A stretch of 25,675 nt of DNA from Bacteroidales bacterium (GTDB taxonomy: Bacteria > Bacteroidota > Bacteroidia > Bacteroidales > UBA10428), in the NCBI GenBank assembly GCA_016926235.1, contig JAFGOZ010000568.1:1-25675 (forward strand). The letters are read 5' to 3'. Every line of letters starts with the position of its first letter. Position 1 is the stretch's first letter. Positions 3,485 through 25,659 of the stretch are shown here, one piece after another. A model generated the notes under the pieces. That model searched no databases, was not told where the DNA came from, and worked only from the letters and a program-made list of their open reading frames with translations. A program made the position numbers and the translations under genes.

Positions 3485-3548
3485 AGAGATTGTTAAAAAA
3501 CATATTCACTTAATAATTAAATTAAGATATTTCTTGATAAAATCTTAA

Positions 3549-4784: not shown

Positions 4785-4788
4785 ATCC

Positions 4789-6678: not shown

Positions 6679-6719
6679 TGTATTTATTAATGAAGGTTAT
6701 TTATATAAACTGAACATGA

Positions 6720-7904: not shown

Positions 7905-7927
7905 TCCTGAATACTATTAAGACAGAC

Positions 7928-9223: not shown

Positions 9224-9247
9224 TAATAAATCCAATCAGTCTGCCAA

Positions 9248-10402
9248 TCAATTACTTTCTTTAACTAATTTTTTATAAATTCTGAATAATTTTTGTACTT
9301 CCGTATCCCAGTTTAACAATTCTGAAGCAAGCTTAGCTTTTCTACACAGTTCCTGGTATAAAGGTTTGTCACTATATATTTTTAATATAGCTTCTGCTAT
9401 CTTCTCGGGTGTGACAGTGCCTATAATTAAACCAAATCCATATTTTTCGTTTAAATAACGATGCTCCGGAAGATCTGACAAAATTACAGGCAATCCAGCA
9501 TTTAGGTATTCAAATAACTTATTAGAAACAGTGTTAATAAAATTGATATTTATTGGTTCGGTCAGAACCACTCCTAAATGTGATGATGATGCTGCTACTG
9601 TAAGTTCAGTCACGAGCACTGGCGGGTCAAATCTTAATTTCTTATCTAAATAAAGTTCAGACGCAATTTCCCTTAGTTGGGCTTCAATTGAGCCATAACC
9701 TCGTAGGACAAACCGGATATCCTCATATTGTTTTAGTAGAGCAGCGGCTCGTACAAATGCTTCATAACCGCGACCTTCATAAAATCTTCCATGATAAAGA
9801 ACTTCAAAAATATCATTCCGTTTAAGCAGAAGTCTTTCTTCATCAACCTTGAATGCACAATTTGTTACTACTGTAGGAAACTTTATACGGTACCTCTTTG
9901 CAAGTATGGCTGCAGAAGAATGGCTTACTGATACAACGTGATCAACACGTTTTAATAGCATGCTCTCCAATAATCTGTAAAAAGTTTTTAGAATTATCCG
10001 CTTGCTCATACTAAGGTTTTCTGTAAAGATTTCATGACTGTCATAAACAATCTTACTTTTTGATTTCCTTGACGCAAAATACGCCACAGGCAAGGCATCC
10101 AGATCATTGGCATGGATTACATCCGGTTCCAGTAATGCACATGCTTTTATTAATCTTTTATATCGTAGATATTCTCTTTTTATCTTAGTAAATAATGTTC
10201 TATTTGCCCTATAATACTTCTTGTCCATACCATCTAATAGTACTGTTCTAAAAGGCAGCCTGGCAACCTCCTTTTCATTATACTCGTTATCTTTCATCCC
10301 AAGAACAGTAGTCTCAAAACCAGCCATATTAGCTGAAGTTGCAGTTCTGCAAACACGTGGATCATACCATACACTATTTGTTACAATCATTGTAATTCTC
10401 AT
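9248..10402 (-). CDS. Glycosyltransferase family 4 (GT-B fold)
   Basis: This is a 384-residue retaining GT-B transferase. The N-terminal domain begins MRITMIVTNSVWYDPRVCR and carries DVIHANDLDALP (95-106) and KIVYDSHEIFTE (117-128), typical of a GT4 subgroup common in Bacteroidota. The C-terminal donor domain starts VLYHGRFYEGRGYE (201-214) and has the signature SNKLFEYLNAGLPVILSD (293-310) with its Glu. The sugar transferred is unknown. The gap upstream to the next gene is 344 nt, the largest inside the assembly cluster, so this may be the first gene of a sub-operon that runs through wzx1, wzy, asnB and the first pyruvyltransferase-family gene. Confidence 0.9.
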   Translation of the reverse strand: MRITMIVTNSVWYDPRVCRTATSANMAGFETTVLGMKDNEYNEKEVARLPFRTVLLDGMDKKYYRANRTLFTKIKREYLRYKRLIKACALLEPDVIHANDLDALPVAYFASRKSKSKIVYDSHEIFTENLSMSKRIILKTFYRLLESMLLKRVDHVVSVSHSSAAILAKRYRIKFPTVVTNCAFKVDEERLLLKRNDIFEVLYHGRFYEGRGYEAFVRAAALLKQYEDIRFVLRGYGSIEAQLREIASELYLDKKLRFDPPVLVTELTVAASSSHLGVVLTEPININFINTVSNKLFEYLNAGLPVILSDLPEHRYLNEKYGFGLIIGTVTPEKIAEAILKIYSDKPLYQELCRKAKLASELLNWDTEVQKLFRIYKKLVKESN

Positions 10403-10746
10403 TGCCCAATTATCTTTATTAAGTTTATTAACATTCTGAAATAGAAAAGGGGAACATTTTTATTTATCAGATTCATTAGCTAAGATGACCGAATCATCAC
10501 CTAATAGTCATAACTCCAAATAGCGTGGTATCAAATCCAATCCAAATAGTGTTGCCATCTATTATTGAAAAAATAATCTAAGTACCTCAAAATAATATAT
10601 ATCAAAACATCGCTTAACCAGGTAGTTCTCTCTGTTTTGCTCTTATCATATTGTATAACGCAGGGTGTGTTGTAGCAAATTTGTTAATTGGATTTTAATC
10701 GTTAACAATTGCCACTTTCTTCGTAATCCATCAAAATCCAGCAATT
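10403..10746. other. 344-nt intergenic region without a recognisable gene
   Basis: This is AT-rich sequence between two GT4 genes on the minus strand. No ORF longer than about 25 codons on the minus strand looks genuine. There is a short minus-strand frame ending ALYNMIRAKQRELPG at about 10618. A 16-codon ATG frame (MATLFGLDLIPRYLEL) lies near 10556-10506. I could recognise no terminator hairpin or clear Bacteroidota TTTG/TAnnTTTG promoter pair. It could hold a promoter for the downstream sub-operon or a highly decayed gene. Confidence 0.4.
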
Positions 10747-11928
10747 TTACCACAATTTTGAACAATAAACCGTTTTTGTCTTATTGGCAATTTCTTGCCA
10801 TGAAAGTTCGGAATTTAAATATTTGTTTGAAATATTGTTTTTTAATTCTCTTAGAAATTCAGGTTTTGTCAATATATATTCGATTGCTTCCGATAATGCA
10901 AGACTATCTTTGGGGGGAATAATTAATCCGGTTTTCATATGTTCAATTACCTCCGGGAAACCACCAACTCTGGTAGCAATAACAGGTTTCCCAAAAAGAA
11001 ATGCTACCATGGGAATTCCACTTTGAGATGCACTTGTATAAGGACAAACAATGACCTTAGATCTTTTAATTAATCTTATTATCTCCTCATTTGAAAGTAA
11101 TCTATTAATTATCTCAATATTTGAATCTGAATATTTTTCTATATCAATTTCCCCGGCACCAGCAATAACTAATTTTATGGATGGAATTTTTTTCTTCAAC
11201 AATCTAACTGAATCAATTAAATAGGTAACTCCTTTATATGGAAGGATCCTCCCGAAAAACAAAATTGACATTTCTTCCTCAGGGATTTCGTTATCAGTTG
11301 AATAACAATTATAAGTTTCAAAAAGACCAAAAGGAATTACAAATACTCTTTTATCGATAGGGTATTTATTACCTTTTAATCCTGAATAATAATTAATAAA
11401 ACAATCCTTTTCTACCGATGAATGCAAAATCACTTTAATGTTCCTCCTGCATATTGTATTAAGTAAAAATCTTTGATTTATGGATAAAGATTTATTCTCT
11501 TCATGCATGGTTACCTCATGTAAGGTGTGAAATATGCACTTTGTACCAAAAATTAGGTAAAAGATACTTAAAAATGGCGAACCTCCGATAATATGAATAA
11601 TATCGAATTTTTGCTTCTTAATAAACCGGGATAACTTAAAAGCAAGAAAAAAATTTAATAATGGATATTTTCTTATGCTTGGATAGAAGAATGAGAATAT
11701 CTTAATTTTATTCAGATATTCCTTTAATTTTTGATTAAGAACTATATCATTATACATGTTATCAAATCCATGCCTGACTTTATAACCTGAAAAGTCTATC
11801 ACATAACTTCTCCTGTCTTCCAACGGTAAAATGCAAAATACGGTTACTTCAAGATTATTATCTGCAAGATGTTTTGCTAAAGGGAAAGTTGTCTCAAGAA
11901 AATGAACAGATGCAATACATACTCTCAT
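10747..11928 (-). CDS. Glycosyltransferase family 4 (GT-B fold)
   Basis: This is a 393-residue GT4 enzyme starting MRVCIASVHF. The N-terminal half has FDIIHIIGGSPFLS (108-121) and a histidine-rich FHTLHEVTMHEE (133-144). The C-terminal domain has ILFFGRILPYKGVTYLI (222-238), LVIAGAGE (253-260) and the donor-site stretch YTSASQSGIPMVAFLFGKPVIATRVGG. The QSG...AFxFGKPVIAT variant, lacking the usual E-A-M-A, is a recurrent form of this signature in GT4 enzymes and need not mean loss of activity. It lies 63 nt downstream of the second pyruvyltransferase-family gene. Donor and linkage are unknown. Confidence 0.88.
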   Translation of the reverse strand: MRVCIASVHFLETTFPLAKHLADNNLEVTVFCILPLEDRRSYVIDFSGYKVRHGFDNMYNDIVLNQKLKEYLNKIKIFSFFYPSIRKYPLLNFFLAFKLSRFIKKQKFDIIHIIGGSPFLSIFYLIFGTKCIFHTLHEVTMHEENKSLSINQRFLLNTICRRNIKVILHSSVEKDCFINYYSGLKGNKYPIDKRVFVIPFGLFETYNCYSTDNEIPEEEMSILFFGRILPYKGVTYLIDSVRLLKKKIPSIKLVIAGAGEIDIEKYSDSNIEIINRLLSNEEIIRLIKRSKVIVCPYTSASQSGIPMVAFLFGKPVIATRVGGFPEVIEHMKTGLIIPPKDSLALSEAIEYILTKPEFLRELKNNISNKYLNSELSWQEIANKTKTVYCSKLW

Positions 11929-11991
11929 GAGGATCTAAGTTTCATCGGTTGGATTTTTCAAAATTTCTTTATTTAGGAGGACTAAATTATT

Positions 11992-13221
11992 TCATTTATA
12001 GTATTGGTGAAATATATCCTCGATCTTTTTCATCATTCTTGTATACTCCAGATATTTTGTATCACTAACCTCCTTACATTTTGTCGATTTAAATTCTGAA
12101 ATTCTCTCCATAACTAATTGTGGTGAGACACCCTTTTTAAAAAAACCTAATACATTATACATATTATCGCCGAATCCAGATTTTGTTAAAAGATCATAAA
12201 TTTTACTCGATCTTTTATTTACTAAAGTGCGATACTTTAATATCCCATAGTAGTCAACACTAAAAAAAGGAATATTATTGTGAATTGAAACAATTATGGG
12301 ATGCATATTATGCCCTATATAAGCTGATGAATATTTGATCAAAGCGAACCAATCAAGGGGCGATAAAGGTAGTGAAATGTTTCTATCAAAACCCAGATCA
12401 TTTATGCCCTGAGGCATTGGCAACCCTACTACTGAGTATCCTTTTTTATTTGCCAACTTTTTGAGTGTTTCTACCCAATCCTTCTTTATAATTGGGAATC
12501 GTTTAAAGCTAAGTAGTAGATAGTTCTCGGGTAAATTGTATTTTATAAGAATTTCATGTCTGGATAGCAAAAGTTCCTGGGCGTTCTGATTAAAGGCAAA
12601 TACCGGATCAGGAGTTATCTCAGGAGTCTGGGTTGAATAAGTCAGATAATGTATCATATTCTGGGTCCATGTGTCTCGTACTGAAATAAATTTAAACATA
12701 TTAATGCTCCTGAAGATTTGTTTTCGTTCTTTCCCGAATATTTTTCTGTAATCTGTGTTTTGGCATGATACCGACATCATAACAACTGGAATTATTTTTT
12801 TCAGTTTTGACAAATAACTACCCCAAAATGGATTAGGATACAATTTATCACTTGTTGGTTTTATTATTGAAAGAATTTTCCTTGAAGGGAAACGTATTCT
12901 GCTTAGAAATGGGACATGCTGAACAACTGCATCACTTCCAACAATAATTCCATCAATGCCATTCTTCTCAATAACATCAACAATATCATCATCGGTTCTG
13001 CAGAGTTTAGATATCGGCAAGTATGTATTTATAAATTCTTTGTGTATTTTAATCTGTTCTGGAGAAGTGTTCTTGTTGTAATAGTCTTCCAGCGCCAGCG
13101 GAATCCAATTAATCACTATCGGCTCAATTCCCTTCTTTTTTAAATACTCTACTGTTGATAAAGTTTGCAGATTAGCACCAAAATTATATACTGAATGATA
13201 CGTAAGAATTCCAATTCGCAT
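11992..13221 (-). CDS. Polysaccharide pyruvyltransferase family protein 2
   Basis: This is a 409-residue PF04230-type protein. It begins MRIGILTYHSVYNFGANLQT, the classic family N-terminus, followed by GIIVGSDAVVQ (91-101) and, in the C-terminal half, SAYIGHNMHPIIVSIHNNIPFFSVDYYG, corresponding to the family's conserved His-containing segment. The first Arg of the usual R-(L/F)-H motif is replaced (G-H-N-M-H), so the exact activity is uncertain. Bacteroidota relatives are common next to flippases of the type found just upstream. Likely role: pyruvate ketal or related modification of the repeat unit. It starts 112 nt downstream of wzx2. Confidence 0.83.
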   Translation of the reverse strand: MRIGILTYHSVYNFGANLQTLSTVEYLKKKGIEPIVINWIPLALEDYYNKNTSPEQIKIHKEFINTYLPISKLCRTDDDIVDVIEKNGIDGIIVGSDAVVQHVPFLSRIRFPSRKILSIIKPTSDKLYPNPFWGSYLSKLKKIIPVVMMSVSCQNTDYRKIFGKERKQIFRSINMFKFISVRDTWTQNMIHYLTYSTQTPEITPDPVFAFNQNAQELLLSRHEILIKYNLPENYLLLSFKRFPIIKKDWVETLKKLANKKGYSVVGLPMPQGINDLGFDRNISLPLSPLDWFALIKYSSAYIGHNMHPIIVSIHNNIPFFSVDYYGILKYRTLVNKRSSKIYDLLTKSGFGDNMYNVLGFFKKGVSPQLVMERISEFKSTKCKEVSDTKYLEYTRMMKKIEDIFHQYYK

Positions 13222-13333
13222 AATCCTTAAATTTTAATGTAGCAATACCACGTGGTATAGTAAAAATATTTATTTTTTCTGTGTCAATCTATTTCGAAAA
13301 TAATAGAAATCGACGAGCAAGTAATCACTTAAA

Positions 13334-14878
13334 TTATTTTAAATCAAATTTGTGTAAAATGCTTAAAAAAATATCTTTTAATATCTTGTTAATTTTTTCA
13401 TTTTCATATTTAGACAATCCCAGCAGTTTTGTAAATAATAAAAATGAAATTGAGCTAACAGCAATCGTAATTAATAATCTAATAAAACCTTCATTAAAGA
13501 AGAAGTGAGGAATGATTGAGATACCCATACAAATTAATACAATGAGTAATGGCTTAAAAACTACATAATTAAGATACTCTTTAATTGGCATATTTGCCAG
13601 TCGGTTGACTGCCAACAGTCTAAAAACAAAAGCAAATATTTCGATAATTATTGTGCTACACAGAACTGTTGTGGGAAGTAGACCCATTCTTAATAAGATA
13701 TATGCAAATGGTAAATTCAGAATTAGCAAAATACTGACCCCAATTTGATATTTTTTTATTCTTCCCACAGATTGAACTGCGGATTGAATCCCAACAGATA
13801 ATAGATTAATCAATGATACAACTAGAATTAAGTTACAAAATCCGATTGTATATTCTGGAACATTTTTCAGCCAGACTGTTAACACATAGGGCATTTCAAT
13901 TAATAATGGTATGGCAAAAAAAGACATTAACAGGAAAGCAAACTTGCTGGCAATCATTGCCAAATTAAGCATCCTTTTTCTCTCGCCACTCCCCTCACTT
14001 ATAGCAATCTGAGGATTTAATGCTTTTAACATATATGTTGAGAAACTTTTTAATTGTGAATCTACTTGATTAGCAATTGCATATGATGCATTTATTCTAG
14101 CCCCAAAAAAAGTATTCAGAATGACTGCTATACCCTGATTTTTTGCTAACATACTAAAGGATCCAAAGAAATTCCAACCAGAAAATGCAAACATTTCTTT
14201 GAATAAGCCTTTACTAAAAAATTTCTTGAAGAGTATTTTAGTCTCACTATATTTCAAATGACAATATAATCGTTTTATTATAACTACAATTATCGTTAGT
14301 CCTGCCATGCATGCACCATAAAAAATAAGTTTATCACCTGGAAAATGAATTAAAGAGACTGCAATCCCTAACCTAATAATAGAATTACAAATTTCAATTA
14401 TTGCGACCGTAATCATATTTTCATGAGAATTCAGAATAGCATCATATGGTACAGAAATAATTGTAAAAAATGTACTACAGACCATAAAATGAAAAATTAT
14501 AACTGCACTCTCTTTGCTTTCTGCCGGAATATTTAAAACATTATCAAATAAGAAGATTCCTACTATTAATAAAAATCCACATATAAATATTCCTAAAATT
14601 AAATGGAGTACAACGCTAGTATTAAATACCATCTGCAATTTCTCGTGAAAACCAGAACCCAGGTAATATGATAAATAGCGTTGAGTTGAAACAGTCATTG
14701 CAGCATTTAAAAATGCTAATAATAAAATTACTCCTGATATGAGATTAAATATTCCATAATTAACTGCTCCAAGGGCGTTTAATACTATCCGGCTTGAGAA
14801 TAATGTAATTGCTATTGTAAGCAACATCTGTCCATACAGAATACCGGTATTAAAAAAAACTCTATTTGCTGTTTGCAT
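13334..14878 (-). CDS. Oligosaccharide flippase 2 (Wzx-like/MATE-fold lipopolysaccharide biosynthesis protein)
   Basis: This is a polytopic inner-membrane protein of about 514 residues with roughly 12-14 hydrophobic helices. Its N-terminus (NRVFFNTGILYGQMLLTIAI, then SSRIVLNALGAVNYGIFNLISG) is typical of a flippase subfamily widespread in Bacteroidota polysaccharide loci and distinct from the wzx1 type. It presumably flips a lipid-linked glycan. I chose the ATG at 14878; a TTG at 14890 would add four residues. It is the second flippase in one locus, while only one polymerase is present. It follows the remnant of capG and a small hypothetical frame. Confidence 0.85.
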   Translation of the reverse strand: MQTANRVFFNTGILYGQMLLTIAITLFSSRIVLNALGAVNYGIFNLISGVILLLAFLNAAMTVSTQRYLSYYLGSGFHEKLQMVFNTSVVLHLILGIFICGFLLIVGIFLFDNVLNIPAESKESAVIIFHFMVCSTFFTIISVPYDAILNSHENMITVAIIEICNSIIRLGIAVSLIHFPGDKLIFYGACMAGLTIIVVIIKRLYCHLKYSETKILFKKFFSKGLFKEMFAFSGWNFFGSFSMLAKNQGIAVILNTFFGARINASYAIANQVDSQLKSFSTYMLKALNPQIAISEGSGERKRMLNLAMIASKFAFLLMSFFAIPLLIEMPYVLTVWLKNVPEYTIGFCNLILVVSLINLLSVGIQSAVQSVGRIKKYQIGVSILLILNLPFAYILLRMGLLPTTVLCSTIIIEIFAFVFRLLAVNRLANMPIKEYLNYVVFKPLLIVLICMGISIIPHFFFNEGFIRLLITIAVSSISFLLFTKLLGLSKYENEKINKILKDIFLSILHKFDLK

Positions 14879-14896
14879 ATAAAGAGGCAAGAAGAA

Positions 14897-15147: not shown

Positions 15148-15484
15148 TCAGAGATTAAAAAACTTTTCAACAATTCTGGTTGCTGCTTTGCCATCCCACA
15201 ATTCCGGAATATTTCCTTTTTTCCATCTACCACTAAACAGTTTATCAATTTCAGGCATTACAGCAGAAGGATCTGTATGTACCTGTCAATTCGTTAGTGC
15301 AAATAGTAACCCTTTCAGGCCTTTCTGTGTTGTTTCGTATGGTAATACACGGAACCCCGAGGACGGTACATACGATTCTATATTGCAATATTTTGCCTTT
15401 CTCACCAGAATTCTGGATTGCGCTAACAAGCGGAGCTATCTTCATGAAGTTAGTACAGGCACCAGCAATAAGAGTAATCTTCAT
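15148..15484 (-). pseudogene. capG: UDP-GlcNAc 2-epimerase-like gene remnant (capG/fnlC)
   Basis: Only the two ends of a nucleotide-sugar 2-epimerase of the WecB/CapG family remain. The start (ATG at 15484) reads MKITLIAGACTNFMKIAPL, where the family has A-R-P-N-F-M-K-I-A-P-L, so the conserved Arg-Pro has become Cys-Thr. About 30 codons later it jumps to the C-terminus: TVLGVPCITIRNNTERPE, then NELTGT. A 4-bp tandem duplication (TGTATGTA at 15274-15281) shifts the frame there. In the shifted frame the rest of the enzyme reads intact: DPSAVMPEIDKLFSGRWKKG, NIPELWDGKAATRIVEKFF, stop at 15148. Roughly residues 30-290 of a ~370-residue enzyme are deleted. Position downstream of capE and capF identifies it as the former UDP-L-FucNAc-forming 2-epimerase. 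Confidence 0.88.
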
Positions 15485-15825
15485 TTTATGATTTGATTGA
15501 ATGATTCTTCCAAATTCTTAATTTTAAACAATAACTATAGACAATTTCCATAAACCAAAAACTAATATTAGTAAATATATTTGGAAAGTTTTTGAAAGAG
15601 AAGAAGCTGTTTTATAAAAACTAGAATTTAAAAGATATTATTCTTAAATTGCATTAGACATAGATTCAATGGAAGGTTTTAAGATATATGGGGAAACACT
15701 TATTGTGAAAAAGTCTGTATTAAATTAAAATCTGTGTTTTTTTAAATGTAACAAATTTAAAAGTTAATCGTTAAATATTCGTGATTAGTCTATAATTTTT
15801 CTTCATTGATCAAAAATAATGGCAA
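15485..15825. promoter_or_regulatory. Divergent intergenic region between the capG remnant and the beta-helix gene
   Basis: These 341 nt of strongly AT-rich DNA separate the leftward capG remnant from the rightward surface-protein gene. The promoter of the 1400-residue protein must lie here or upstream. A TAATTTTT close to the Bacteroidota -7 element TAnnTTTG occurs at about 15793-15800, but no good TTTG element sits at the expected distance, so this is weak. No hairpin terminator, coding frame or RNA gene was recognised. Confidence 0.3.
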
Positions 15826-18800
15826 ATGAAAATTGCTTTGCTGATATTTTTCATAACAATAGGTACAATAGCTTCAGCAACTGACTATTATATAAGTTCA
15901 TCCGGAGATGATTTAAATTTTAATGGAACATCTTCTTCAACACCCTGGAAAACTATAGCCAAAGTCAATTCTATTTTTTCCACATTGAAGCCTGGCGACA
16001 GGATTTTATTTAACAGGGGCGACACTCTTTACGGAACTTTAACTCCAACAAAATCAGGCACAATTGAAAATGCAATAACTATTGGAGCTTACGGTACTGG
16101 TAGTAGACCCGTAATATCTGGATTTACGACTATTAATGGATGGGAAAAAGAATCAGGTGGAATATATTCAAAGGTTATCTCTCCTGCATCTGCTCCAAAT
16201 ATGGTTACTGTGGATGGTGTCAATACTCCTATTGGAAGATATCCCAATACATCATACCTTAAAATAGACAGTCATGTAGGAGGTACCTCAATTACTGATG
16301 CAGAACTACCGGCATCTCCTGCTTTTACTGGTGGAGAAGTTGTAATACGAAAAAACCATTGGATAATAGACAGGTGTCCAATTACTGACCATACAAATCA
16401 AACATTAACCTATACAAATACATCTACTTATTCACCTGCAAATGGTTATGGATATTTTGTCCAAAATCATTTAAGTACACTAACTGCATTGGGGGAATGG
16501 TATTATAATCCAGCTGCTAAAAAATTCTATATGTATTTTGGATCCGTTGATCCTGCTATTAAAACAGTAAAAGTATGCACCTTAGATGAATTGGTTAATA
16601 TAAGACTCTGCAACTATATCACATTTGAAAATATAACCTTTGAAGGAGCAAACACTAATTGCTTTAATATCGCCAGCTCTTCTGGCATCACTATACAAAA
16701 CTGTACAATTGGTTACGCTGGTAAATATGGGATATATGGATTACAGAGTTACGGAGCAAGTTCAAATGGTTTTACTTTATTAAATTCGATTGTAAGTAAT
16801 TGTAATAACTGTGCGATTGAGATTGGATCTCTGTTTCAAAATGCTTTATTAAGCAATAATGTGATACATGATATCGCCGTAATACCAGGTATGGGAATGT
16901 CGGGTGATGGCAAATATTATGCAATTAGGATTTCTGGTGCTACCGGTACAATAATAGAATTTAATGATGTTTATAATATTGGATTTGTCCCGATTTCAGG
17001 AAACGGTAGTGACACAAAAATAAGAAACAATTATATACATAATTATGGTTACATTAAAGATGATGGTGGCGGTATTAATGTTGCATATTCTACTTACACT
17101 GGAAGAGAAATAACAAATAACATAATTGCAGATGGAATTGGTGCAACAGATGGGGCAATAGGTAGTTCTCAAACAATGGGGATATATTGTGATGATATGA
17201 GTGGTGATATCCTAATAAATGGTAATTCAATCTTTAATATTACCTTTTTAGGTTTATATCTACATAATGCCCATCATATAACTGTAACGAATAATACTAT
17301 ATATAACTGTTACAAGCAAATATATTTTAATCATGATCCATCATTTCCCGACTATCCTATACATAATGTAATAGTTAATCAAAATATCTTTTTTTCAAAA
17401 GCAGCAACACAAACAATTTTCCACTTTACGACCTCTTATGAAGACCTGTTAAGTTTTGGAACTGCGGATAACAACTATTATGCGAGACCAATAGCTGATG
17501 ATAATGTGTTTTATACATATACTCCATCTTTAGGTTCTAAGACAAGGACTCTTGCAAACTGGCAATCATATTCAGGTCAGGATCTGAATTCCAAAAAATC
17601 ACCAATAACTATAACTGATGTTAATGTTTTTAGATTTGAGTACAACGCATCAAAGTCAAACAAAGTAGTAACCCTGGATAAACCCATGATTGATGTCAAA
17701 GGAACTAAATATCATAACAGTATTACTCTTTTACCATACACTTCTGCAGTCCTGATGGTTGATCCCAATCCTACTCCACCAGAAATCCCAATATATTTAA
17801 GCTCAGTAATTGAAAATGCCACACCATCATTGCTTGAGATGACTTACAGTCTTCCACTTGCTAATTCAGTCCCTGCTGCATCATCCTTTAGTGTAGTTGT
17901 TAATTCTGTACCAAGAAGCGTTAGTGCTGTTTCTGTCTCAGGTGGTAAAGTTCTACTAACTCTCTCAAGTCCTGTTATCTCAGGGAACGTAGTTACGGTC
18001 GCCTACACCAAACCTGCAGTAAATCCAATTAAAACAACCTCAGGAGGAGAAGCAGCCAGTATGGGCCCACAACCAGTGACTAACAAAGTTAGCTCAGGAA
18101 TTCCTTTATATTTAAACTCAGTCGTAGAAAACCTGACTCCTACTATGCTCGAAATAACCTTCGATTTAAATCTTTCGGAATCAATAATACCTAGTACTTC
18201 CGTATTTAATGTTCAAGTAAATTCTTCCACAAGAACAATAAATAACATATCTATTTTAGGTAATAAAGTACGACTGACTTTATCAAATCCCGTTGTTTAC
18301 GGGGATGCTATTACAGTATCATATACCAAACCTGCGACCGGAGGATTACAAACTTCCTTAGGAGGAGAAGTAGCAACATTCAGTACAAAGACAGTAACAA
18401 ATAATGTTGGACCTGTAACTCCCATATTTGTCAGCGCTGTTGTAGAGAACGCAACGCCTACTATCATTGAGATGAATTATAACTTAAGTCTGGCGAATAT
18501 TATTCCAGCAACTTCCGCTTTCAGTTTAATTGTCAATTCTTCAACCAGAAGCATCGGCTCTGTTTCTATAGTTTCAGGTAAAGTTAGACTTACACTTCCA
18601 TCTCCCCTGTCATATGGTGACATAATAACTATCTCCTACTCAAAACCATCAACAAATCCTCTTCAAACGTCTTCTGGTGGTCAAGCAGCAAGCATAAGCG
18701 GGAAACCAGTTACGAATAATATAAATCCAGCTGTTCCTGTCTATACAAGTTCTGCTATTGAAGATGCAACATCCGATATTCTCGAAATGACCTATAACAT

Positions 18801-20028
18801 AGCTTTAGCAAACATAATACCTGCAATCTCTGCATTTGATGTTCAGGTTAACTCCACATCCAGGGCCATAAGTTCAGCTGCTATTGTAACAGGTAAAGTC
18901 CGTTTAACTCTTGCAAGCAAGGTTGTCTATGGTGATATAGTAACTATTTCATACACAATACCACCTATCAACCCACTTCAAACTTCTTCAGGAGGACAGG
19001 CAGAAAGCATCTCACTACAGCCTGTTACTAATAAATGCTTTAATCCTGTAATACCCAACAAACTGCCTGTAATTGATATCCGACAAAACGAAACTGAGAT
19101 TTTATCTGGATTTGTTTATGAACTAGATGCCTCAGCAACTTATGATTCTGATGGTGATCCACTCACTTACAGTTGGGATGTTCCTGCACAGTTCCCTGTC
19201 TCTTCAACAACAGACTTGAAAATCAGGTACCTGACTCCTGTGGTAAGTGCTCCACAAACATTCAACTTTACTTTAACTGTTAATGACACACGAGATATTG
19301 TTACCAAAAGCATATCTATAACAGTAAATCCCTATAAACCTGAATTAGGAATAGCCAAAATAGACCTGATTGAAGCAAGCAATTATTCCTTTTCTGACCT
19401 TCCTGATAATGTGAATGACGGTAATCTATCAACAAAATGGTCAATTGACGGTGACAACCAATGGCTTACAATGAGATTAACAGATCCTTTTAAATTAGAT
19501 CATGTTCAGATCGCTTTCCTTCCCACTCAAAAATATGAGTCTTATTTTGATATACTTGCTTCGAAAGATAATATTCTTTGGGAACCTATTCTTACAAGAG
19601 TTCCTTCATGTGATTTTTCAGGTAACCTCCAGAATTTTGATTTCTCTGTTGAAAAAAACAATATAAGTTATTCTTACATTAAGCTGGTAGGGCATGGTAA
19701 CTCTTTGAATACTATGAACAATTATTCTGAAATTAAATTGTTCGGTACTATAGGTGAGAAATCTTCAGATCCTGCCATTCAACCTGACAATATTTCAATT
19801 TATCCTAATCCTGCAACCGATTTTATCAATGTACTTGTTCTTGAACCACCGTCAGAGACTCAATTACTCAGGATTTTTGATTACTCCGGAGTCCTTAGGT
19901 TTACAGCAAGCATTGAACCGGCAGTTAATAACCTACAAATTCCTCTCAACCTCCATCCGGGAGCCTATGTAGCCCAGGTACTTCTCGGAAAAATAATTGT
20001 GTACGCCAAACAGTTAATTGTTCAATAA
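15826..20028 (+). CDS. Secreted right-handed beta-helix / SwmB-repeat / discoidin protein with T9SS sorting domain
   Basis: This 1400-residue surface protein is the only convincing plus-strand gene. It has a Sec signal peptide (about residues 1-19). A right-handed parallel beta-helix follows, with DYYISSSGDD near the start and runs of N-rich turns (residues about 20-600), resembling NosD/pectate-lyase-like carbohydrate-active folds. Four ~100-residue SwmB-like repeats span about 654-1070. A PKD/cadherin-like domain (SATYDSDGDPLTYSWDV) spans about 1075-1170. An F5/8 type C (discoidin/CBM32-like) domain covers about 1175-1308. A type A T9SS sorting domain begins SIYPNPATDFINV (about 1324-1400) and ends KQLIVQ. 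It is probably exported and attached to the cell surface as an adhesin or polysaccharide-binding or -cleaving protein; no lyase catalytic residues can be assigned. The ATG at 15826 opens directly into the signal peptide. It converges on the next gene with a 28-nt gap. Confidence 0.9.
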   Translation: MKIALLIFFITIGTIASATDYYISSSGDDLNFNGTSSSTPWKTIAKVNSIFSTLKPGDRILFNRGDTLYGTLTPTKSGTIENAITIGAYGTGSRPVISGFTTINGWEKESGGIYSKVISPASAPNMVTVDGVNTPIGRYPNTSYLKIDSHVGGTSITDAELPASPAFTGGEVVIRKNHWIIDRCPITDHTNQTLTYTNTSTYSPANGYGYFVQNHLSTLTALGEWYYNPAAKKFYMYFGSVDPAIKTVKVCTLDELVNIRLCNYITFENITFEGANTNCFNIASSSGITIQNCTIGYAGKYGIYGLQSYGASSNGFTLLNSIVSNCNNCAIEIGSLFQNALLSNNVIHDIAVIPGMGMSGDGKYYAIRISGATGTIIEFNDVYNIGFVPISGNGSDTKIRNNYIHNYGYIKDDGGGINVAYSTYTGREITNNIIADGIGATDGAIGSSQTMGIYCDDMSGDILINGNSIFNITFLGLYLHNAHHITVTNNTIYNCYKQIYFNHDPSFPDYPIHNVIVNQNIFFSKAATQTIFHFTTSYEDLLSFGTADNNYYARPIADDNVFYTYTPSLGSKTRTLANWQSYSGQDLNSKKSPITITDVNVFRFEYNASKSNKVVTLDKPMIDVKGTKYHNSITLLPYTSAVLMVDPNPTPPEIPIYLSSVIENATPSLLEMTYSLPLANSVPAASSFSVVVNSVPRSVSAVSVSGGKVLLTLSSPVISGNVVTVAYTKPAVNPIKTTSGGEAASMGPQPVTNKVSSGIPLYLNSVVENLTPTMLEITFDLNLSESIIPSTSVFNVQVNSSTRTINNISILGNKVRLTLSNPVVYGDAITVSYTKPATGGLQTSLGGEVATFSTKTVTNNVGPVTPIFVSAVVENATPTIIEMNYNLSLANIIPATSAFSLIVNSSTRSIGSVSIVSGKVRLTLPSPLSYGDIITISYSKPSTNPLQTSSGGQAASISGKPVTNNINPAVPVYTSSAIEDATSDILEMTYNIALANIIPAISAFDVQVNSTSRAISSAAIVTGKVRLTLASKVVYGDIVTISYTIPPINPLQTSSGGQAESISLQPVTNKCFNPVIPNKLPVIDIRQNETEILSGFVYELDASATYDSDGDPLTYSWDVPAQFPVSSTTDLKIRYLTPVVSAPQTFNFTLTVNDTRDIVTKSISITVNPYKPELGIAKIDLIEASNYSFSDLPDNVNDGNLSTKWSIDGDNQWLTMRLTDPFKLDHVQIAFLPTQKYESYFDILASKDNILWEPILTRVPSCDFSGNLQNFDFSVEKNNISYSYIKLVGHGNSLNTMNNYSEIKLFGTIGEKSSDPAIQPDNISIYPNPATDFINVLVLEPPSETQLLRIFDYSGVLRFTASIEPAVNNLQIPLNLHPGAYVAQVLLGKIIVYAKQLIVQ
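17785..19035 (+). repeat. Four tandem SwmB-like ~100-codon repeats within the beta-helix gene
   Basis: The repeats start at about residues 654 (IPIYLSSVIENATP), 759 (IPLYLNSVVENLTP), 866 (PIFVSAVVENATP) and 971 (PVYTSSAIEDATS). Each contains L(L/I)EMTY-like, SxFxVxVNSxxR, GKVRLTL and (I/V)SYxxP...TSxGG strands and ends PVTN. The copies are diverged at DNA level, so the array is old rather than a recent slippage product. The pattern matches the SwmB/'cyanobacterial long protein repeat' type, which has an Ig-like fold. Confidence 0.8.
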
Positions 20029-20056
20029 ATTCTGCGTTGAGTTCTATGTGTGCTAA

Positions 20057-21055
20057 TCAGAAGGATCTTATTGCACGTACACCTAATGGAAAACTTTTAG
20101 TCAGATTGCTAACCACCCCGGTAGAAAAATCCTGGCACCAGGCACTGACACTGCTTAATTCTGTCGAACTCCAGTAATAATTGCTGTCAAAATTACCAAC
20201 CAGATCTCTTTGCATAAATAATATAGCCAGTTCATATTTCGAAGGGAGATACCAATCCCCAAAACTTACTCCATCCACAATTACTGAATAATCAGCACAT
20301 AATTTAGCAGCAAAATTTCCCATAGGCTCATCGTTAGTCTGCTGGGCAATTATCATTTCAGTATTCATTTCCCCGGTGCCGATTCCATCTCCTGCAGTGT
20401 TAGAATATCTCTTTACACCATTATACCACTGAATTGATGGGTCTTGATCCACCACTGAAGCTATCAATCCATGTCTTCCATTATCAAAAACATAAAAGAC
20501 TATCCCACCTCCATATGATTCTCCTACATAGTGTGCTTTCTCATTTAAAACATAAGGATCTTCTTCAGTACCTGAACCTGTGATTGAAATATTATTACCG
20601 GCAGTAATATTTCCTCCTCCAATTCCTCCTCCAGAGCCTGCTTTTTTCGCATACAATGCATAAGGCACACTCAGGAACTGGCTTATCCCCATTTCAACAT
20701 ACGAATTGCCACCGGTTTTATCAAGCTCTACTTTCAGGAAATAAGCATCGCCACCCCAATCGATATTTGCAAATACACCTGATATTATTGCCCCGTTACC
20801 GATAATGAGCGATACCTGCCCTAATGCATCTGTCATAGTATTGTGTGTCTCACTGTAAACCACTGTTCCGGTAACATTTCCCCTAACAATACTGAACCGG
20901 AACGAAACTGCCTGGTTAAAGAGGGGATTCCCGATATTATCACGGACAATGGCACTGTAGTTGAAGCCTTCGGGTGCCTGTGCGTGGGCGGTGATGGACA
21001 AGAAAAGCATTAAGACGCAGGTAGCAGGTAGTATGTAGCGGTTTAAATGATTCAT
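20057..21055 (-). CDS. Secreted Bacteroidota protein with C-terminal DUF1566/Lcl-like domain
   Basis: This 332-residue protein has a Sec signal peptide ending near HAQA (about residue 26). The N-terminal domain is a Bacteroidota-specific module (APEGFNYSAIVRDNIGNPL ... VETH-like strand ... FLSVPYALYAKKAG, residues 27-140). A glycine-rich linker follows (141-149). The C-terminal domain (about 177-332) has the DUF1566/Lcl hallmarks GGGIVFYV, WYLPSKYELAIL, YYWSSTE and a final VRAIRSF. No T9SS sorting domain or lipobox is visible, so its final location is unclear (periplasm, or surface by another route). Function is unknown; Lcl-type domains occur in adhesin-like surface proteins. It separates capF from the capG remnant, together with the convergent beta-helix gene. 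Confidence 0.85.
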   Translation of the reverse strand: MNHLNRYILPATCVLMLFLSITAHAQAPEGFNYSAIVRDNIGNPLFNQAVSFRFSIVRGNVTGTVVYSETHNTMTDALGQVSLIIGNGAIISGVFANIDWGGDAYFLKVELDKTGGNSYVEMGISQFLSVPYALYAKKAGSGGGIGGGNITAGNNISITGSGTEEDPYVLNEKAHYVGESYGGGIVFYVFDNGRHGLIASVVDQDPSIQWYNGVKRYSNTAGDGIGTGEMNTEMIIAQQTNDEPMGNFAAKLCADYSVIVDGVSFGDWYLPSKYELAILFMQRDLVGNFDSNYYWSSTELSSVSAWCQDFSTGVVSNLTKSFPLGVRAIRSF

Positions 21056-21307
21056 TTCTGAAGATGATGGTTGAATCTATAAATTTACGAAATTTTTAAT
21101 TCAGCCGGAAATTATATTCAAGAGAAAAATGGTGCGATGTTTCACGGTTCAACGTCTCAGTGGCGTAACGGCTCAATGGTGTTAGATCGCAAAGTCTGGT
21201 AGCTAAACTGGTCATTGGGTGTTTCTCTCCGAACTCCAGGGACTTTAGTCTTCCTATTGCGGAATCTCCGCTCCACTGAGTTACTTCCGCTATTACGTAA
21301 TTTCGTC

Positions 21308-21322
21308 TCCCGATTCTCGGGA
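21308..21322 (-). terminator. Short perfect hairpin downstream of capF
   Basis: TCCCGA-TTC-TCGGGA forms a perfect 6-bp stem with a 3-nt loop, 55 nt past the capF stop. It has no U-tract on either side, so intrinsic termination is doubtful. It may be part of the intergenic repeat material. Confidence 0.25.
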
Positions 21323-21330
21323 TTTCCTCA

Positions 21331-21372
21331 CTACGTTCATCAAACTACGTTCCTCAAACTCCGAACTTCAAA
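21331..21372. repeat. Three 14-bp tandem repeats next to the capF stop
   Basis: CTACGTTCATCAAA (21331-21344), CTACGTTCCTCAAA (21345-21358) and the diverged CTCCGAACTTCAAA (21359-21372) run head to tail and end 5 nt from the capF stop codon. They lie outside the coding frame. Confidence 0.6.
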
Positions 21373-21377
21373 ATTCT

Positions 21378-22496
21378 TTAAACTTTTTCAAAATACGTAT
21401 CCGGATCCTCCTGATCAAAGAACTCGCTTATCCAGAATATCGTGTAAAGGTCTTCGGAACCGACATTAGTAATGTTGTGTGTGTGCCATATGGGCATATC
21501 GACATAAGAAGGTTCATCGTCGTTAAGCTCAAAATTCATTACTTTATCGCTACCGATACAACGTAGCTGGATCACTCCTTTTCCCTTTATGACAGCAAAC
21601 CGTTCAGCTTTGCGGATATGAAAATGATTACCCCTGGTAATGCCCGGTCTGGTTGTTGAAAACGATACCTGGCCACCGCTTGTTAACTTCACCGTTTCAA
21701 CAAATGAACCCCTGTCATCAGTATTTTTTAAAAGTTTTACAGGATTACGTTTCTCATTATCAATATAACATACGAATGTGTTAAAGAGATCACGGACAAA
21801 AGGATCGTTCAGATCAGGAAAAATGCCTTTTTCAAAATAACCTGATTTGAATTCTTTTAACAGACTAAGTATCTCTGTTACTTTTATTTCCCGGGTATGA
21901 GGTACTCTGAATTCAGTCGCAGATTGTTTGCCTTTTATAAGGCTGTATATGATCTGTACCAAGTCGCCGACGTAAATGATCTTCAGCTGAGCATCGACTT
22001 CTATCTTTGGTTCTTCATTATGTGTAAGCTGATGTGAGAAAGTTGCCACAACAGAATTATAATACGGCATACCGAAGGGTCCGAATACATTCGGTATTAC
22101 CATCCCTGTAAACAGTGCTCCGTTCTTTTCTGCCCAGGCAGTAAGGATCTCCCTTCCCTCTCTCTTCGAACGTCCAAATACATTATCGCGTTCTTCCTGA
22201 GTAGATGAAGAGAACAGGATATGCGGTTTTGAGACTGTTTTATCACAAGCATCAAGGAGTTTTCTGATCAATTCAAGGTTTGTGTTATAAATAACCTCCG
22301 GCTCATTGTGCCTGTTTACGGCGGCAAGATGGACTATCACATCACATTGCTTAACGAATTCCTCCAACAGGATTTCGTCGTTGAAGAATTCGTCCCGGAA
22401 AGGGATCCTTGTTACTTCGTCTTTCTGAAGTCCGAGGTAGTTATAGAGATGAGTGCCGATGAAGCCGGACTGGCCGGTTATACCAATTTTTAACAT
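21378..22496 (-). CDS. capF: CapF/WbjC/FnlB: UDP-2-acetamido-2,6-dideoxy-hexulose epimerase/reductase
   Basis: This is the bifunctional second enzyme of UDP-L-FucNAc synthesis, at 372 residues the normal family length. The N-terminal SDR domain has GITGQSGFIGTHL (5-17) and the late-SDR motif DNVFGRSKREGRE (104-116). The C-terminal cupin domain has GNHFHIRKAERF (289-300) and WHTHN (337-341), supplying the metal-binding His/Glu set. In characterised CapF the cupin epimerises C3 of the CapE product and the SDR domain reduces C4 with NADPH, giving the L-talo sugar. The usual catalytic Tyr of YxxxK is Phe here (F107, TTT codon) while K111 remains. The gene is separated from capE by an inserted surface-protein gene and from capG by two others. 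Confidence 0.92.
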   Translation of the reverse strand: MLKIGITGQSGFIGTHLYNYLGLQKDEVTRIPFRDEFFNDEILLEEFVKQCDVIVHLAAVNRHNEPEVIYNTNLELIRKLLDACDKTVSKPHILFSSSTQEERDNVFGRSKREGREILTAWAEKNGALFTGMVIPNVFGPFGMPYYNSVVATFSHQLTHNEEPKIEVDAQLKIIYVGDLVQIIYSLIKGKQSATEFRVPHTREIKVTEILSLLKEFKSGYFEKGIFPDLNDPFVRDLFNTFVCYIDNEKRNPVKLLKNTDDRGSFVETVKLTSGGQVSFSTTRPGITRGNHFHIRKAERFAVIKGKGVIQLRCIGSDKVMNFELNDDEPSYVDMPIWHTHNITNVGSEDLYTIFWISEFFDQEDPDTYFEKV

Positions 22497-22510
22497 TGAT
22501 AAAGAGTAAG

Positions 22511-22563
22511 AGTGATTAAAAGTTGGGAGTGCCTAAAGTGACTAGAGTGACTAGAGTGCCTGA
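22511..22563. repeat. 9-bp tandem repeat array between the leucine-rich-repeat gene and capF
   Basis: Head-to-tail variants of AGTGACTAG run AGTGATTAA, a disturbed 8-bp unit, AGTGCCTAA, AGTGACTAG, AGTGACTAG, AGTGCCTGA. They fill about half of the 105-nt gap between the stop of the gene at 22602 and the capF start. The same unit forms the array at 24551-24604 on the other side of that gene. Confidence 0.8.
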
Positions 22564-22601
22564 AGTTGTGTTTTTGCCCGTAATATTATTTTGTATAGGA
22601 A

Positions 22602-24545
22602 TCAGGGTATGATTATTTTTTTTGTGTGACTTTGTTTTCCCTCTGAAAGTTCTACTACATATATCCCGGGTGTAAGTGATGAGATATCAAAAACCATAAG
22701 ATCACTGTCGACCAGCTGACTATAAATCTGTACACCGTTAAGATTGTAGAGACTTGCTTGCCAGGAGATTAAATTTTCTTCTAAATGGATCCTAATTTCA
22801 TCACCGGTTACTATAATTTTTAATGGTTCTTTGTCGTCAGGTAGATCTTCTGATCCAGTTACCACATCGATGGTCCAACCTCGGGCAATCAGGTTGTCAA
22901 TATGAACCAGTCCCGTTGAGGAGGGGGCTGAATTGCCTGTCAGATCAAGGATACCATAACTATGACCGGCTGCATCAAGAACCTGCAATACATAATCTAT
23001 TAAAGATTCAGTAAGGTTACAATTCCTTAAACGGACATCTTTCATATATCCTCCGTTTCCGAAATTGAGTGCCGTCAGCTGACACTCTGAAAAATCAATA
23101 TTGCGTAAGTTAGGACTATCGCTTACATCTACACTTGTATAATAATTATTATATGATTCAACCACACGGATAGCAGAAGAATGACAAATGAATGCTCCTG
23201 TCTGATTGGTGTTCCAGTTCAACAACTCCCGTAAAACAGGGAATTGTGTAAGATCCGGCAGATTCTGATCCATCTGAGGATTATCCCTGATACAAAGATG
23301 CCAGAGAGATTGTCCTATTGAACCCCATTTTATTGAAGCATAGCTGTTCAATGCCCCCCTCAGATCTTCCAGCCCTTCACATCCCGACAGATCGAGAGAA
23401 TCCAGATCGCAGTTCTCCACACATAATCTTTCCAGATCCGGATGAATACCTAACTTTAATCTTGATAAGAACTGACATTTATACAATTCAACGAATTCCA
23501 ATGCTGTCAACTCCCGGAGATCAAGCTCTGCCAGGGGATTATAACTTGCACAAATGTATCTCAGGCTGTTTGTCGCAAGATTCAAATTCCTGAATCCAAC
23601 GACATTCTGATTCGACACGACATCAAACTCCCCATATCCCCCATCTGAGGCATCATAACCAACATTAATCCCAACCAGTGCGGACCAGGGTGTGACTCTA
23701 AGATAATTACGCCGGGGTCCTGCAGTACCATATTCTTTTGCAGGTGTGGCCGATGAACTTGTTGTGGAATCGTGAAAAATCCATTCAATTACCGGCGTAC
23801 CTGACACTTCAATGACAGGTGCAAAGACTGCACCGTCACTCTGGATATTAATTACATCTTCAGGTACGGGGTCGTATTGCCATGGCCAGGTAATTTCCCC
23901 TTCAATTGTTATCTTTCCCCATCTCGTATTCCCTCCCCAGCCTCCAAGAGCGATCTTCCTGTCAAGCTCAGGAGCACAGTTATTATTATAAGAATATACA
24001 ATATTATCAACTGATGATTTTATTGTCATTCCTGCAGCTGATACAGTAAACTCATAGTCTCTTGCAACTCCTGTAACTATATAGGGAGCTCCTATATCAC
24101 CTGCATTTGTTCCATTCTGAACCCAGAAATTTTTGTAATCAGCCAGGACAGCCCCAAGGCCGGGATCCGGTAAATAATTATCACCTGCAAATGAGGTAAG
24201 ATCGGTATAGAAATTCAGATGATGTCCCTCTGAAGTTAGTGCTACTGCATCTTTTGCAATTATCCTGCTGCATTTTATTCCCTGTTTCCATATCATAGCT
24301 CTTATCGAAGTATAACCTCCATCAATTGTAACAGTCCCAATATCCATGACCAATGATGACCCGTTTGTTGTTATCCAATCCTGAAGCTGTGAATCATCTG
24401 ACCAGTCATATTCAACACTGATATGTGTTGAATCGATCCAGGTAACAGTGCCGTTCAATCCAAGATCGGGGTAGTCCGGTTCTTGTTGCCCATAAATGAG
24501 GACTGGCACACAGAGTAAGAGCAGGTAGAACAGGTATCGGGACAT
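22602..24545 (-). CDS. Secreted leucine-rich-repeat surface protein with T9SS sorting domain
   Basis: This 647-residue exported protein has a Sec signal peptide (about residues 1-20, ending VLIYGQ). An N-terminal region of unknown fold spans about 22-225. It is followed by a strand-rich segment (VINIQSDGAVFAP...) and an irregular leucine-rich-repeat domain (about 315-560) with units such as LAELDLRELTALEFVELYKC, LERLCVENCDLDSLDLSGCE and LRNIDFSECQLTALNFGN. A type A T9SS C-terminal domain follows (about 575-647: LYNLNGVQIYSQ, FDISSLTPGIYVVELS, ending KKIIIP). It is probably exported by the T9SS and surface-attached; function is unknown, with binding or adhesion plausible. It is flanked on both sides by the same 9-bp tandem repeats and lies exactly between capE and capF, as if inserted there. 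Confidence 0.87.
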   Translation of the reverse strand: MSRYLFYLLLLCVPVLIYGQQEPDYPDLGLNGTVTWIDSTHISVEYDWSDDSQLQDWITTNGSSLVMDIGTVTIDGGYTSIRAMIWKQGIKCSRIIAKDAVALTSEGHHLNFYTDLTSFAGDNYLPDPGLGAVLADYKNFWVQNGTNAGDIGAPYIVTGVARDYEFTVSAAGMTIKSSVDNIVYSYNNNCAPELDRKIALGGWGGNTRWGKITIEGEITWPWQYDPVPEDVINIQSDGAVFAPVIEVSGTPVIEWIFHDSTTSSSATPAKEYGTAGPRRNYLRVTPWSALVGINVGYDASDGGYGEFDVVSNQNVVGFRNLNLATNSLRYICASYNPLAELDLRELTALEFVELYKCQFLSRLKLGIHPDLERLCVENCDLDSLDLSGCEGLEDLRGALNSYASIKWGSIGQSLWHLCIRDNPQMDQNLPDLTQFPVLRELLNWNTNQTGAFICHSSAIRVVESYNNYYTSVDVSDSPNLRNIDFSECQLTALNFGNGGYMKDVRLRNCNLTESLIDYVLQVLDAAGHSYGILDLTGNSAPSSTGLVHIDNLIARGWTIDVVTGSEDLPDDKEPLKIIVTGDEIRIHLEENLISWQASLYNLNGVQIYSQLVDSDLMVFDISSLTPGIYVVELSEGKQSHTKKIIIP

Positions 24546-24550
24546 ATAGA

Positions 24551-24604
24551 AGTGACTAGAGTGACTAGAGTGACTAGAGTGGCTAGAGTGGCTAGAGTGA
24601 CTAG
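24551..24604. repeat. Six-copy 9-bp tandem repeat (AGTGACTAG) between capE and the leucine-rich-repeat gene
   Basis: Six uninterrupted 9-bp units: AGTGACTAG three times, AGTGGCTAG twice, AGTGACTAG once. They occupy 54 of the 73 nt between the capE stop and the start codon at 24545. The array ends only 5 nt before that ATG, so it forms the untranslated leader of the gene. Confidence 0.92.
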
Positions 24605-24618
24605 TGGTTTGGGAGTTA

Positions 24619-25659
24619 TCAGGGTTCGTAGATCGGTGCTTTCTTTTCGTGGAGGACGTCTTCTCTTATCATGTTGAGTTTAAGGAGGAGTTCTTTTGTT
24701 TCTTCAATATCCAGCTGGCGGGTATTATGAGAATTGTATTCCTTTGATTCCGAGACTTTTGCTTCGCCCTCGGTGAAAAATTTATTATAGTTAAGATCGC
24801 GGGTATCAGCAGGTATTCTGAAGAAATCGCCCTCGTCGATCGCTTTTACCATATCTTCACGGTTGACAAGGGTTTCATACAGTTTCTCTGCATGTCTGGT
24901 CCCGATTATATTAACTGGTGAGGTGGAATTATATAATTCCTTAAGAGCCTGAGCCAGGATACCTACTGTTGTGGCAGGTGATTTTCTTACGAAGATGTCA
25001 CCGTTATTGCCGTTCCTGAATGCGAATATGACAAGTTCAACAGCCTCCTCAAGCGTCATCAGGAACCGTGTCATATTCGGGTCGGTGATAGTTAAAGGGT
25101 TATTATTCTTTATCTGACTTACGAAAAGAGGGACAACAGATCCTCTTGATGCCAGAACATTACCATATCTTGTTCCGCAAAATATTATCCCTGAGCCGTT
25201 CAGGTTTCTTGACTGGGCTATCATGATCTTTTCACTAAGAGCTTTCGACATGCCCATGGCATTGACGGGATAGACTGCCTTATCAGTACTCAGGGTTACA
25301 ACTCTTGCTACGTTGTTCTTCAGGGCAGAATTTAATACGTTCTCACATCCCAGTACATTGGTCCTGACAGCTTCTGCCGGGAAAAATTCACAGGACGGAA
25401 CCTGCTTCAAAGCTGCGGCATGGAATATATAGTCAACACCATGCATGGCAGCATTCAGGCTATCAATGCTGCGGACATCGCCTATAAAGTATTTTATTTT
25501 CGGATTCTTATAGAACTGCCGCATATCATCCTGCTTCTTTTCATCGCGGCTGAATATCCTTATTTCGGCAATATCAGTATCCAGAAAACGGCGTAAGACT
25601 GCATTGCCGAAAGAGCCGGTTCCGCCGGTGATGAGTAAACATTTATTATTAAAATCCAT
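24619..25659 (-). CDS. capE: CapE/WbjB/FnlA: UDP-GlcNAc 4,6-dehydratase/epimerase
   Basis: This is the first enzyme of UDP-L-FucNAc synthesis. It converts UDP-D-GlcNAc to UDP-2-acetamido-2,6-dideoxy-beta-L-arabino-hexul-4-ose, using bound NAD(P). It is a 346-residue extended SDR with the nucleotide-binding TGGTGSFG (11-18), HAAALKQVPSCE (80-91), STDKAVYPVNAMGMSK (124-139) and MTRFLMTLEEAVELVIFAF. As is normal in this FlaA1/CapE group, Met replaces the usual Tyr of YxxxK (MGMSK) and Asp-Lys of STDK supplies catalysis. GDIFVRKSPA and the C-terminal DTRDLNYNKFF favour CapE over the pseudaminic-acid enzyme PseB. It is complete, starting at the ATG at 25659, 16 nt from the window edge; the operon probably continues upstream. 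Confidence 0.92.
   Translation of the reverse strand: MDFNNKCLLITGGTGSFGNAVLRRFLDTDIAEIRIFSRDEKKQDDMRQFYKNPKIKYFIGDVRSIDSLNAAMHGVDYIFHAAALKQVPSCEFFPAEAVRTNVLGCENVLNSALKNNVARVVTLSTDKAVYPVNAMGMSKALSEKIMIAQSRNLNGSGIIFCGTRYGNVLASRGSVVPLFVSQIKNNNPLTITDPNMTRFLMTLEEAVELVIFAFRNGNNGDIFVRKSPATTVGILAQALKELYNSTSPVNIIGTRHAEKLYETLVNREDMVKAIDEGDFFRIPADTRDLNYNKFFTEGEAKVSESKEYNSHNTRQLDIEETKELLLKLNMIREDVLHEKKAPIYEP

Follow-up and report, generated by a model that had tools for sequence, protein, structure and literature searches.

A T9SS-tailed gene lies between two 9-nt repeat arrays in the capE/capF joint of a Bacteroidales bacterium

The genes capE, capF and capG, which we take to correspond to fnlA, fnlB and fnlC, presumably form the operon of the UDP-L-FucNAc pathway. 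In the stretch of DNA analysed here (the window, 25675 bases), capE and capF are intact, in their normal order and co-directional, as in that operon. The window differs from it in lacking capG and in carrying a T9SS-tailed gene between capE and capF, where this gene lies between two arrays of a 9-nt unit. Moreover, the capE product scored 539.7 bits against the FnlA equivalog TIGR04130 (cut-off 730) and the capF product 251 bits against NCBIfam WbcJ (cut-off 500), which places both outside these equivalogs. The likeness to T9SS type A cargo (Por_Secre_tail, TIGR04183) consists of the sorting tail present on two of the three extra proteins of the region, whereas no tail was found in the third, an Lcl-like protein. 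Further comparisons can be drawn from published descriptions. Many of the small genes in the cap joints of relatives resemble the intervening sequences of 23S rRNA (PMC4990558) in coding for TIGR02436-type proteins, and a minority of them have complementary ends; the relatives' small genes, however, sit in the joints of protein operons and not in rRNA, and the arrays of the window are direct, not inverted. Eighteen genes of the S23/four-helix-bundle protein family have been described in cas loci (PMC3936711), hence the occurrence of this protein outside rRNA was already known. BrickBuilt, a minisatellite-MITE of Porphyromonas gingivalis with a 23-nt unit and leader and tail subunits (PMC4596501), likewise places tandem repeat units between genes of a Bacteroidales genome, whereas the window has 9-nt units framing a gene. 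Arrays of the heptamer TAACTGA are likewise direct repeats of short length, scattered through genomes close to start codons, five Bacteroidetes included (PMC4679880); their unit is a different one, and the accessible part of that source links them with no inserted genes. Among the matches listed from the open-access literature, a scope that leaves out many subscription papers, none dealt with four-helix-bundle or GxxExxY genes located in operon joints.

Table 1. Features of the window with coordinates, strand and basis of assignment
Feature	Coordinates	Strand	Basis or remark
Transposase-domain ORF (DUF772), 100 aa	247..549	-	left edge of polysaccharide locus
Polysaccharide locus	769..14890	-	head-to-head with 1400-aa gene
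WecB-type UDP-GlcNAc 2-epimerase remnant (earlier 'capG')	15148..15484	-	337 nt
1400-aa protein gene: right-handed beta-helix, 4 SWM repeats, PKD, F5/8 type C, T9SS tail	15826..20028	+	
332-aa protein gene, Lcl_C-like C-terminus	20057..21055	-	tail-to-tail with 1400-aa gene, 28 nt between
capF / fnlB-wbcJ-type reductase	21378..22496	-	PF14667 E 2.3e-47; NCBIfam WbcJ
647-aa gene/capF joint, 105 nt	22497..22601	.	second AGTGACTAG array at 22527-22558
647-aa protein gene, T9SS sorting tail, in capE/capF joint	22602..24545	-	Pfam and NCBIfam tail models
capE/647-aa gene joint, 73 nt	24546..24618	.	array of 9-nt unit AGTGACTAG at 24551-24604
capE / fnlA-type UDP-GlcNAc 4,6-dehydratase/5-epimerase	24619..25659	-	Pfam PF02719 E 1.1e-98; NCBIfam FnlA best match

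The genes capE and capF, the 647-aa gene and the Lcl-like gene are all encoded on the minus strand (Table 1). The polysaccharide locus comprises four glycosyltransferases, two pyruvyl transferases, an asparagine-synthase-type enzyme, Wzy and two flippases. GC content is 29-36% across the first 18 kb of the window and 37-43% thereafter, a step in line with a mosaic region. The GC of the 647-aa gene equals that of the cap genes (40-43%); thus, composition shows no trace of recent entry. Promoters of Bacteroidota carry the motif TTTG-N17-23-TANNTTTG. A scan for this motif yielded 0 matches versus 2.0 expected, and scans for sigma-70 promoters and terminators stayed at chance level, hence none of them gave a sign of separate transcription.

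The original prediction held that all three pathway genes keep their canonical order, which is true of capE and capF but not of capG. The capG candidate (15484-15148) was rejected, as it is a broken WecB-type epimerase of which both ends are kept and the middle is missing. The remnant covers codons 1-41 and approximately 291-362 of WecB-type epimerases, the last part in another frame, and its best piece is 65% identical over 34 aa to wecB of L008 (E 1.8e-9). By comparison, the best of 76 FnlC/CapG-type queries reached E ~3e-4. Matches of these queries fell mostly in the 3' part of the remnant and none of the 76 gave a match lying in its 5' piece; the capG query of L019 produced a weak run across part of that piece through residues 250-319, not through its N-terminus (E 0.004). 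In relatives, a GTRPEIIRLS-type capG sits downstream of capF. With capG absent from the window, three cap genes in order on one strand were not found, and there is no capF/capG joint that the Lcl-like and 1400-aa genes could occupy, as had been proposed; both genes are present, but outside any cap joint.

The sorting tail of the 647-aa protein passes both models applied (Pfam, 31.8 bits versus a cut-off of 27; NCBIfam, 35.1 versus 23). That of the 1400-aa protein passes TIGR04183 (26.4 versus 23) and misses Pfam PF18962 by 0.6 bit (26.4 versus 27), so that the expected number of two tailed proteins was confirmed. The N-termini of the Lcl-like, 647-aa and 1400-aa proteins are hydrophobic as judged by eye and may represent signal peptides. 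A leucine-rich-repeat protein had been predicted for the capE/capF joint; the tailed gene is there, but a Pfam search of the window's own 647-aa protein gave no LRR match. PF12799, presumably LRR_4, is listed for several of its relatives, from which the protein is predicted to be of the LRR type. At E 1e-20, relatives of the 647-aa gene turned up in 6 of the 117 genomes of the family and, at E 1e-100, in 1 of 393 order genomes (G005, also among the matches of the family genomes). Its closest relatives, P0122 (72%) and P0123 (69%), come from metagenome contigs. In none of the seven relatives' stretches, several of them short (the G051 contig has 3.2 kb), did the gene lie between capE and capF, and the relatives examined contained neither the order capE, 647-aa gene, capF nor a near-identical locus with an empty joint. 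A polysaccharide-type gene lies near the relative in L221 and L225, and that of G051 (L114) adjoins a hexapeptide transferase. The start of this transferase (L114, 2398-3198) resembles that of one beside the beta-helix gene of L163.

Cap joints were compared across 84 loci of relatives, 22 from a related-locus search and 62 from 117 family and 393 order genomes. L158 was dropped as a duplicate, and L216 and L228 have no capF by the cut used. Measurement over all loci, with identical pairs removed, covered 72 joints between capE and capF (that of the window among them) and 74 between capF and capG; the capF matches in G098:C13 and G071:C328 (33-36% identity) and in G233:C229 (contig edge) lie outside this set. 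More than 250 bp separated the genes in 28/72 capE/F joints (27/71 without the window) and in 27/74 capF/G joints. The 27 filled capE/F joints of relatives contained GxxExxY genes (7), four-helix-bundle genes (5; two of these 12 together with FdtA), FdtA alone (6), Wzi (2), GNAT/acyltransferase/phosphoesterase genes (3), an 89-aa ORF (1) or no ORF (3). In the 27 filled capF/G joints we found GxxExxY genes (9), four-helix-bundle genes (9, one with a transposase), a T9SS PKD protein (1), other genes (6) or no ORF (2). Thus, four-helix-bundle or GxxExxY genes account for 30 of the 54 filled joints. The four-helix-bundle proteins of L187 (E/F) and L202 (F/G) are 77% identical and the GxxExxY proteins of L005 (E/F) and L192 (F/G) 75%, indicating that one subfamily lands in either cap joint. 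The closest capF found, that of L141 (75%), has a four-helix-bundle gene in its capE/capF joint, and in further close relatives this joint is occupied by a Wzi gene. Other joints in the same loci, few in number, exceeded 250 bp in 0/7 (Wza/Wzc), 0/8 (FdtA/FdtA), 1/11 (CHU_C/PorP) and 3/12 (PorP/OmpA) cases, one of the last three being L019. Repeated landing in cap joints is therefore real, and the view of these joints as recurrent landing sites with varied content was borne out. Their usual passengers, however, are small orphan genes and not secreted cargo as anticipated: of the 145 joints measured in relatives, one contains a T9SS-tailed protein (that of L006; Pfam was run on 16 larger joint proteins) and two contain Wzi, an outer-membrane capsule protein. 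Because the joints of relatives so often hold small unrelated genes, they appear to be a permissive landing place rather than a target of surface-protein delivery. As separate observations, L142 and L143 both read capE-Wzi-capF-capG with equal lengths, scores and visible protein starts, yet are assigned to different species (G038, G051), reflecting either shared DNA or contamination. L001, from a record titled Candidatus Atribacteria, has a capE 75% and a capF 70% identical to those of the window and may be misbinned.

We read this as a mosaic cell-surface region with a permissive capE/capF joint, repeat-mediated entry of the T9SS gene and a glycan-linked beta-helix protein, a reading to which we assign a probability of roughly 55%. 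The capE/capF joint would be an operon position that tolerates insertion, in which four-helix-bundle/GxxExxY genes land repeatedly in relatives. The T9SS gene would have entered by recombination between dispersed copies of the 9-nt repeat, located in the joint and elsewhere in genomes of the family. The beta-helix protein, in turn, may be exported by the T9SS and bind or trim the polysaccharide made by the neighbouring locus. If true, this would help to explain how surface-sugar operons of Bacteroidota gain unrelated genes without breaking, and a T9SS beta-helix family travelling with polysaccharide loci would contain possible partners of those glycans.

The AGTGACTAG array between capE and the 647-aa gene has 6 copies (95% matches) and that between the 647-aa gene and capF 3.6 copies in the same direction; they are the only two such arrays in the window, and the flanks of the 647-aa gene score 25 as direct and 8 as inverted repeats. 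Upstream of capF in L141 lies a similar array, whose 9-nt unit reads CACTCTAGG in the direction of the operon, 22 nt from the start versus 31 nt in the window. Entry of the 647-aa gene through recombination at the arrays is what probably happened; about one chance in three is left for arrays that grew after insertion instead, since the 9-nt repeat is common between genes and only 7 of 33 clusters examined adjoin a four-helix-bundle or GxxExxY gene. It is quite possible, though at less than even odds, that the arrays played no part at all, being neutral tandem growth in spacers, and that the T9SS gene arrived by ordinary illegitimate or homologous recombination. This fits the dispersal of the pattern between genes across 50 of the 117 genomes of the family (0 with the pattern reversed), the intergenic position of 28 of the 33 clusters (30 loci), the lack of such an array near each of seven relatives of the 647-aa gene, and the arrays in 31 of 227 spacers of 101-200 bp away from four-helix-bundle/GxxExxY genes. 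It fits less well with the framing of the inserted gene by the window's sole two arrays, or with the excess of arrays in spacers beside the small genes, 46/91 versus 28.1 ± 3.5 expected with matched lengths (p 2e-4), a test that covered loci with such genes and in which shuffling was confined to length classes but not to single loci. Across all loci read, at least one flanking array was present for 22/28 four-helix-bundle, 10/21 GxxExxY and 214/1414 other genes, and arrays of like unit on both flanks for 4/28, 1/21 and 15/1414, respectively. The 22-nt pattern of the 9-nt repeat has 170, 89 and 55 (overlapping) matches in G073, G091 and G085.

Two further alternatives concern the genes rather than the repeats. 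The original prediction had secreted-protein genes delivered repeatedly to cap joints, in a directed or selected manner, possibly because cargo and glycan cooperate. The T9SS PKD protein that fills the capF/capG joint of L006 (1553 aa) would agree with this, as would Wzi: it occupies the capE/capF joint of L142/L143 and of L146, and it stands ahead of capF in L144, a locus truncated at capE. So would the beta-helix gene, present in 14/21 genomes with a capF match versus 20/96 others (p 8e-5, with kinship and genome size uncontrolled). The joint counts given above, however, make such delivery improbable, two of the three supposed cargo genes lie outside any cap joint, and joints of other operons take inserts too (PorP/OmpA in L176 and L019). 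Alternatively, capE and capF may be newcomers to an older surface-protein region, with capG lost later. Relatives with newly arrived cap genes had been named beforehand as evidence against the original prediction, and one relative, L019, shows them: capE-F-G is wedged into a T9SS operon at the junction of PorP/SprF with PD40/OmpA, a gap with a median of 61 bp that stays below 250 bp in 9 of the 12 loci in which both genes were measured. The Lcl/beta-helix pair in two genomes without a capF match (G057, G019) points the same way. We nevertheless consider it unlikely that the cap genes are the newcomers here: the window has no PorP/OmpA genes, and several genes are split in L019, a MAG contig of 9.9 kb. 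The right edge of the window falls just past capE, which places any older neighbour out of sight. The genes split in L019 (1-9916), possibly through assembly errors, are those of CapF, OmpA and the beta-helix protein.

The proposed glycan partner in the mosaic reading is the 1400-aa protein, whose beta-helix domain covers approximately residues 1-640. It and the Lcl-like gene form a tail-to-tail pair that was also found in G019 and G057 with gaps of 21 and 10 nt, respectively; the two loci are L164 and L165. The Lcl homologue is 62% identical in G019 and 76% identical over 184 residues in G057, and no capF match at E 1e-50 was obtained in either genome. In G057, just as in the window, a polysaccharide locus lies head-to-head with the beta-helix gene, and its far end carries a second paralogue; the G019 contig stops inside the beta-helix gene. 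As the pair recurs in genomes without a capF match and borders a polysaccharide locus, it is best read as a neighbour of that locus and not as an insert of the cap operon. Lcl_C in the 332-aa protein scores 29.6 bits, under the Pfam cut-off of 34.9, and the protein falls outside the Lcl collagen-like adhesins (NF046116), with 85 bits versus 500 over the C-terminal 73 residues only. The 1400-aa protein has relatives in 34/117 family genomes at E 1e-40, and in a large protein collection, from which 7994 candidates were scored, it gave 800 matches, the best 120 of the 800 being listed. Its N-terminus matches the N-termini of lacto-N-biosidases, presumably GH136, over only some 80-100 residues, and its F5/8 domain matches carbohydrate-binding modules. 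Binding or trimming of the local glycan at the cell surface would be its most likely role.

The gene neighbourhoods of the beta-helix family are consistent with this role. A polysaccharide gene lies within three genes of 19/30 beta-helix relatives versus 0/20 other T9SS-tail genes, although four of the 30 loci (L019, L175, L178, L179) were chosen because of capF and the polysaccharide reference set was partly drawn from beta-helix loci themselves; with references from the window only, the contrast is 4/26 versus 0/20 (p 0.12). A PorP/SprF-OmpA-CHU_C gene was within the same distance in 13/30 versus 0/20. The 20 control genes were hand-picked approximately in rank order from six of the same genomes, off contig ends and with beta-helix proteins excluded, though one (L247) still matched the 1400-aa reference. 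Pfam searches on 74 neighbours of beta-helix genes, the two nearest on each side, detected OmpA/PD40 (9), PorP (4), hexapeptide transferase (4) and FdtA (3), none of which appeared among the families listed for 70 control neighbours (25 of the 86 found there); 3 of 73 such neighbours had been left out as longer than 1200 aa. Clustering with polysaccharide and PorP/OmpA genes, weaker with the narrower references, thus makes a protein-glycan link of the kind originally suggested plausible.

The small genes that commonly fill cap joints raise one more possibility. Four-helix-bundle/GxxExxY genes could be small mobile units that leave tandem-repeat ends, and these ends could serve as recombination pads for the movement of the T9SS gene, a whole capEFG block or other larger genes into and out of surface operons. 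We regard this as rather doubtful, including the part by which some such units in Bacteroidota operon joints would be built like rRNA intervening sequences. The four-helix-bundle protein of L003, the sole one put to the model, reaches 80.3 bits against TIGR02436 (cut-off 24), and the others were grouped with it by phmmer. Inverted flank scores of at least 16 were obtained for 10/28 four-helix-bundle, 4/21 GxxExxY and 10/1498 other genes, so that complementary ends belong to a minority. The element of L141 has inverted flanks scoring 25 and folds into a long end-to-end stem, with an MFE of -142.4 versus -109.1 ± 5.6 for 100 shuffles (z -5.98). Mean flank pairing energies were -43.6 and -44.0 for the two small-gene classes versus -29.5 kcal/mol, a difference that tandem repeats as such may drive. 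The 647-aa gene of the window showed neither inverted ends nor an S23 ORF, and no four-helix-bundle gene was found in the window. The PorP/OmpA joint takes capEFG in L019 and, in L176 (13195-13640), a whole four-helix-bundle gene with arrays. Co-orientation was rejected as a special property of the small genes (45/45 versus 77/85 other small genes, p 0.05). Four-helix-bundle/GxxExxY genes with strong inverted flanks lie in cap joints at L141 1489-1848, L188 7780-8151 and L199 1501-1872, and these resemble rRNA intervening sequences in their build although their setting is a protein operon. In the PorP/OmpA joint of L173 (9572-9694), an array is accompanied by what appears, by eye, to be a remnant of the first codons of the L176 gene.
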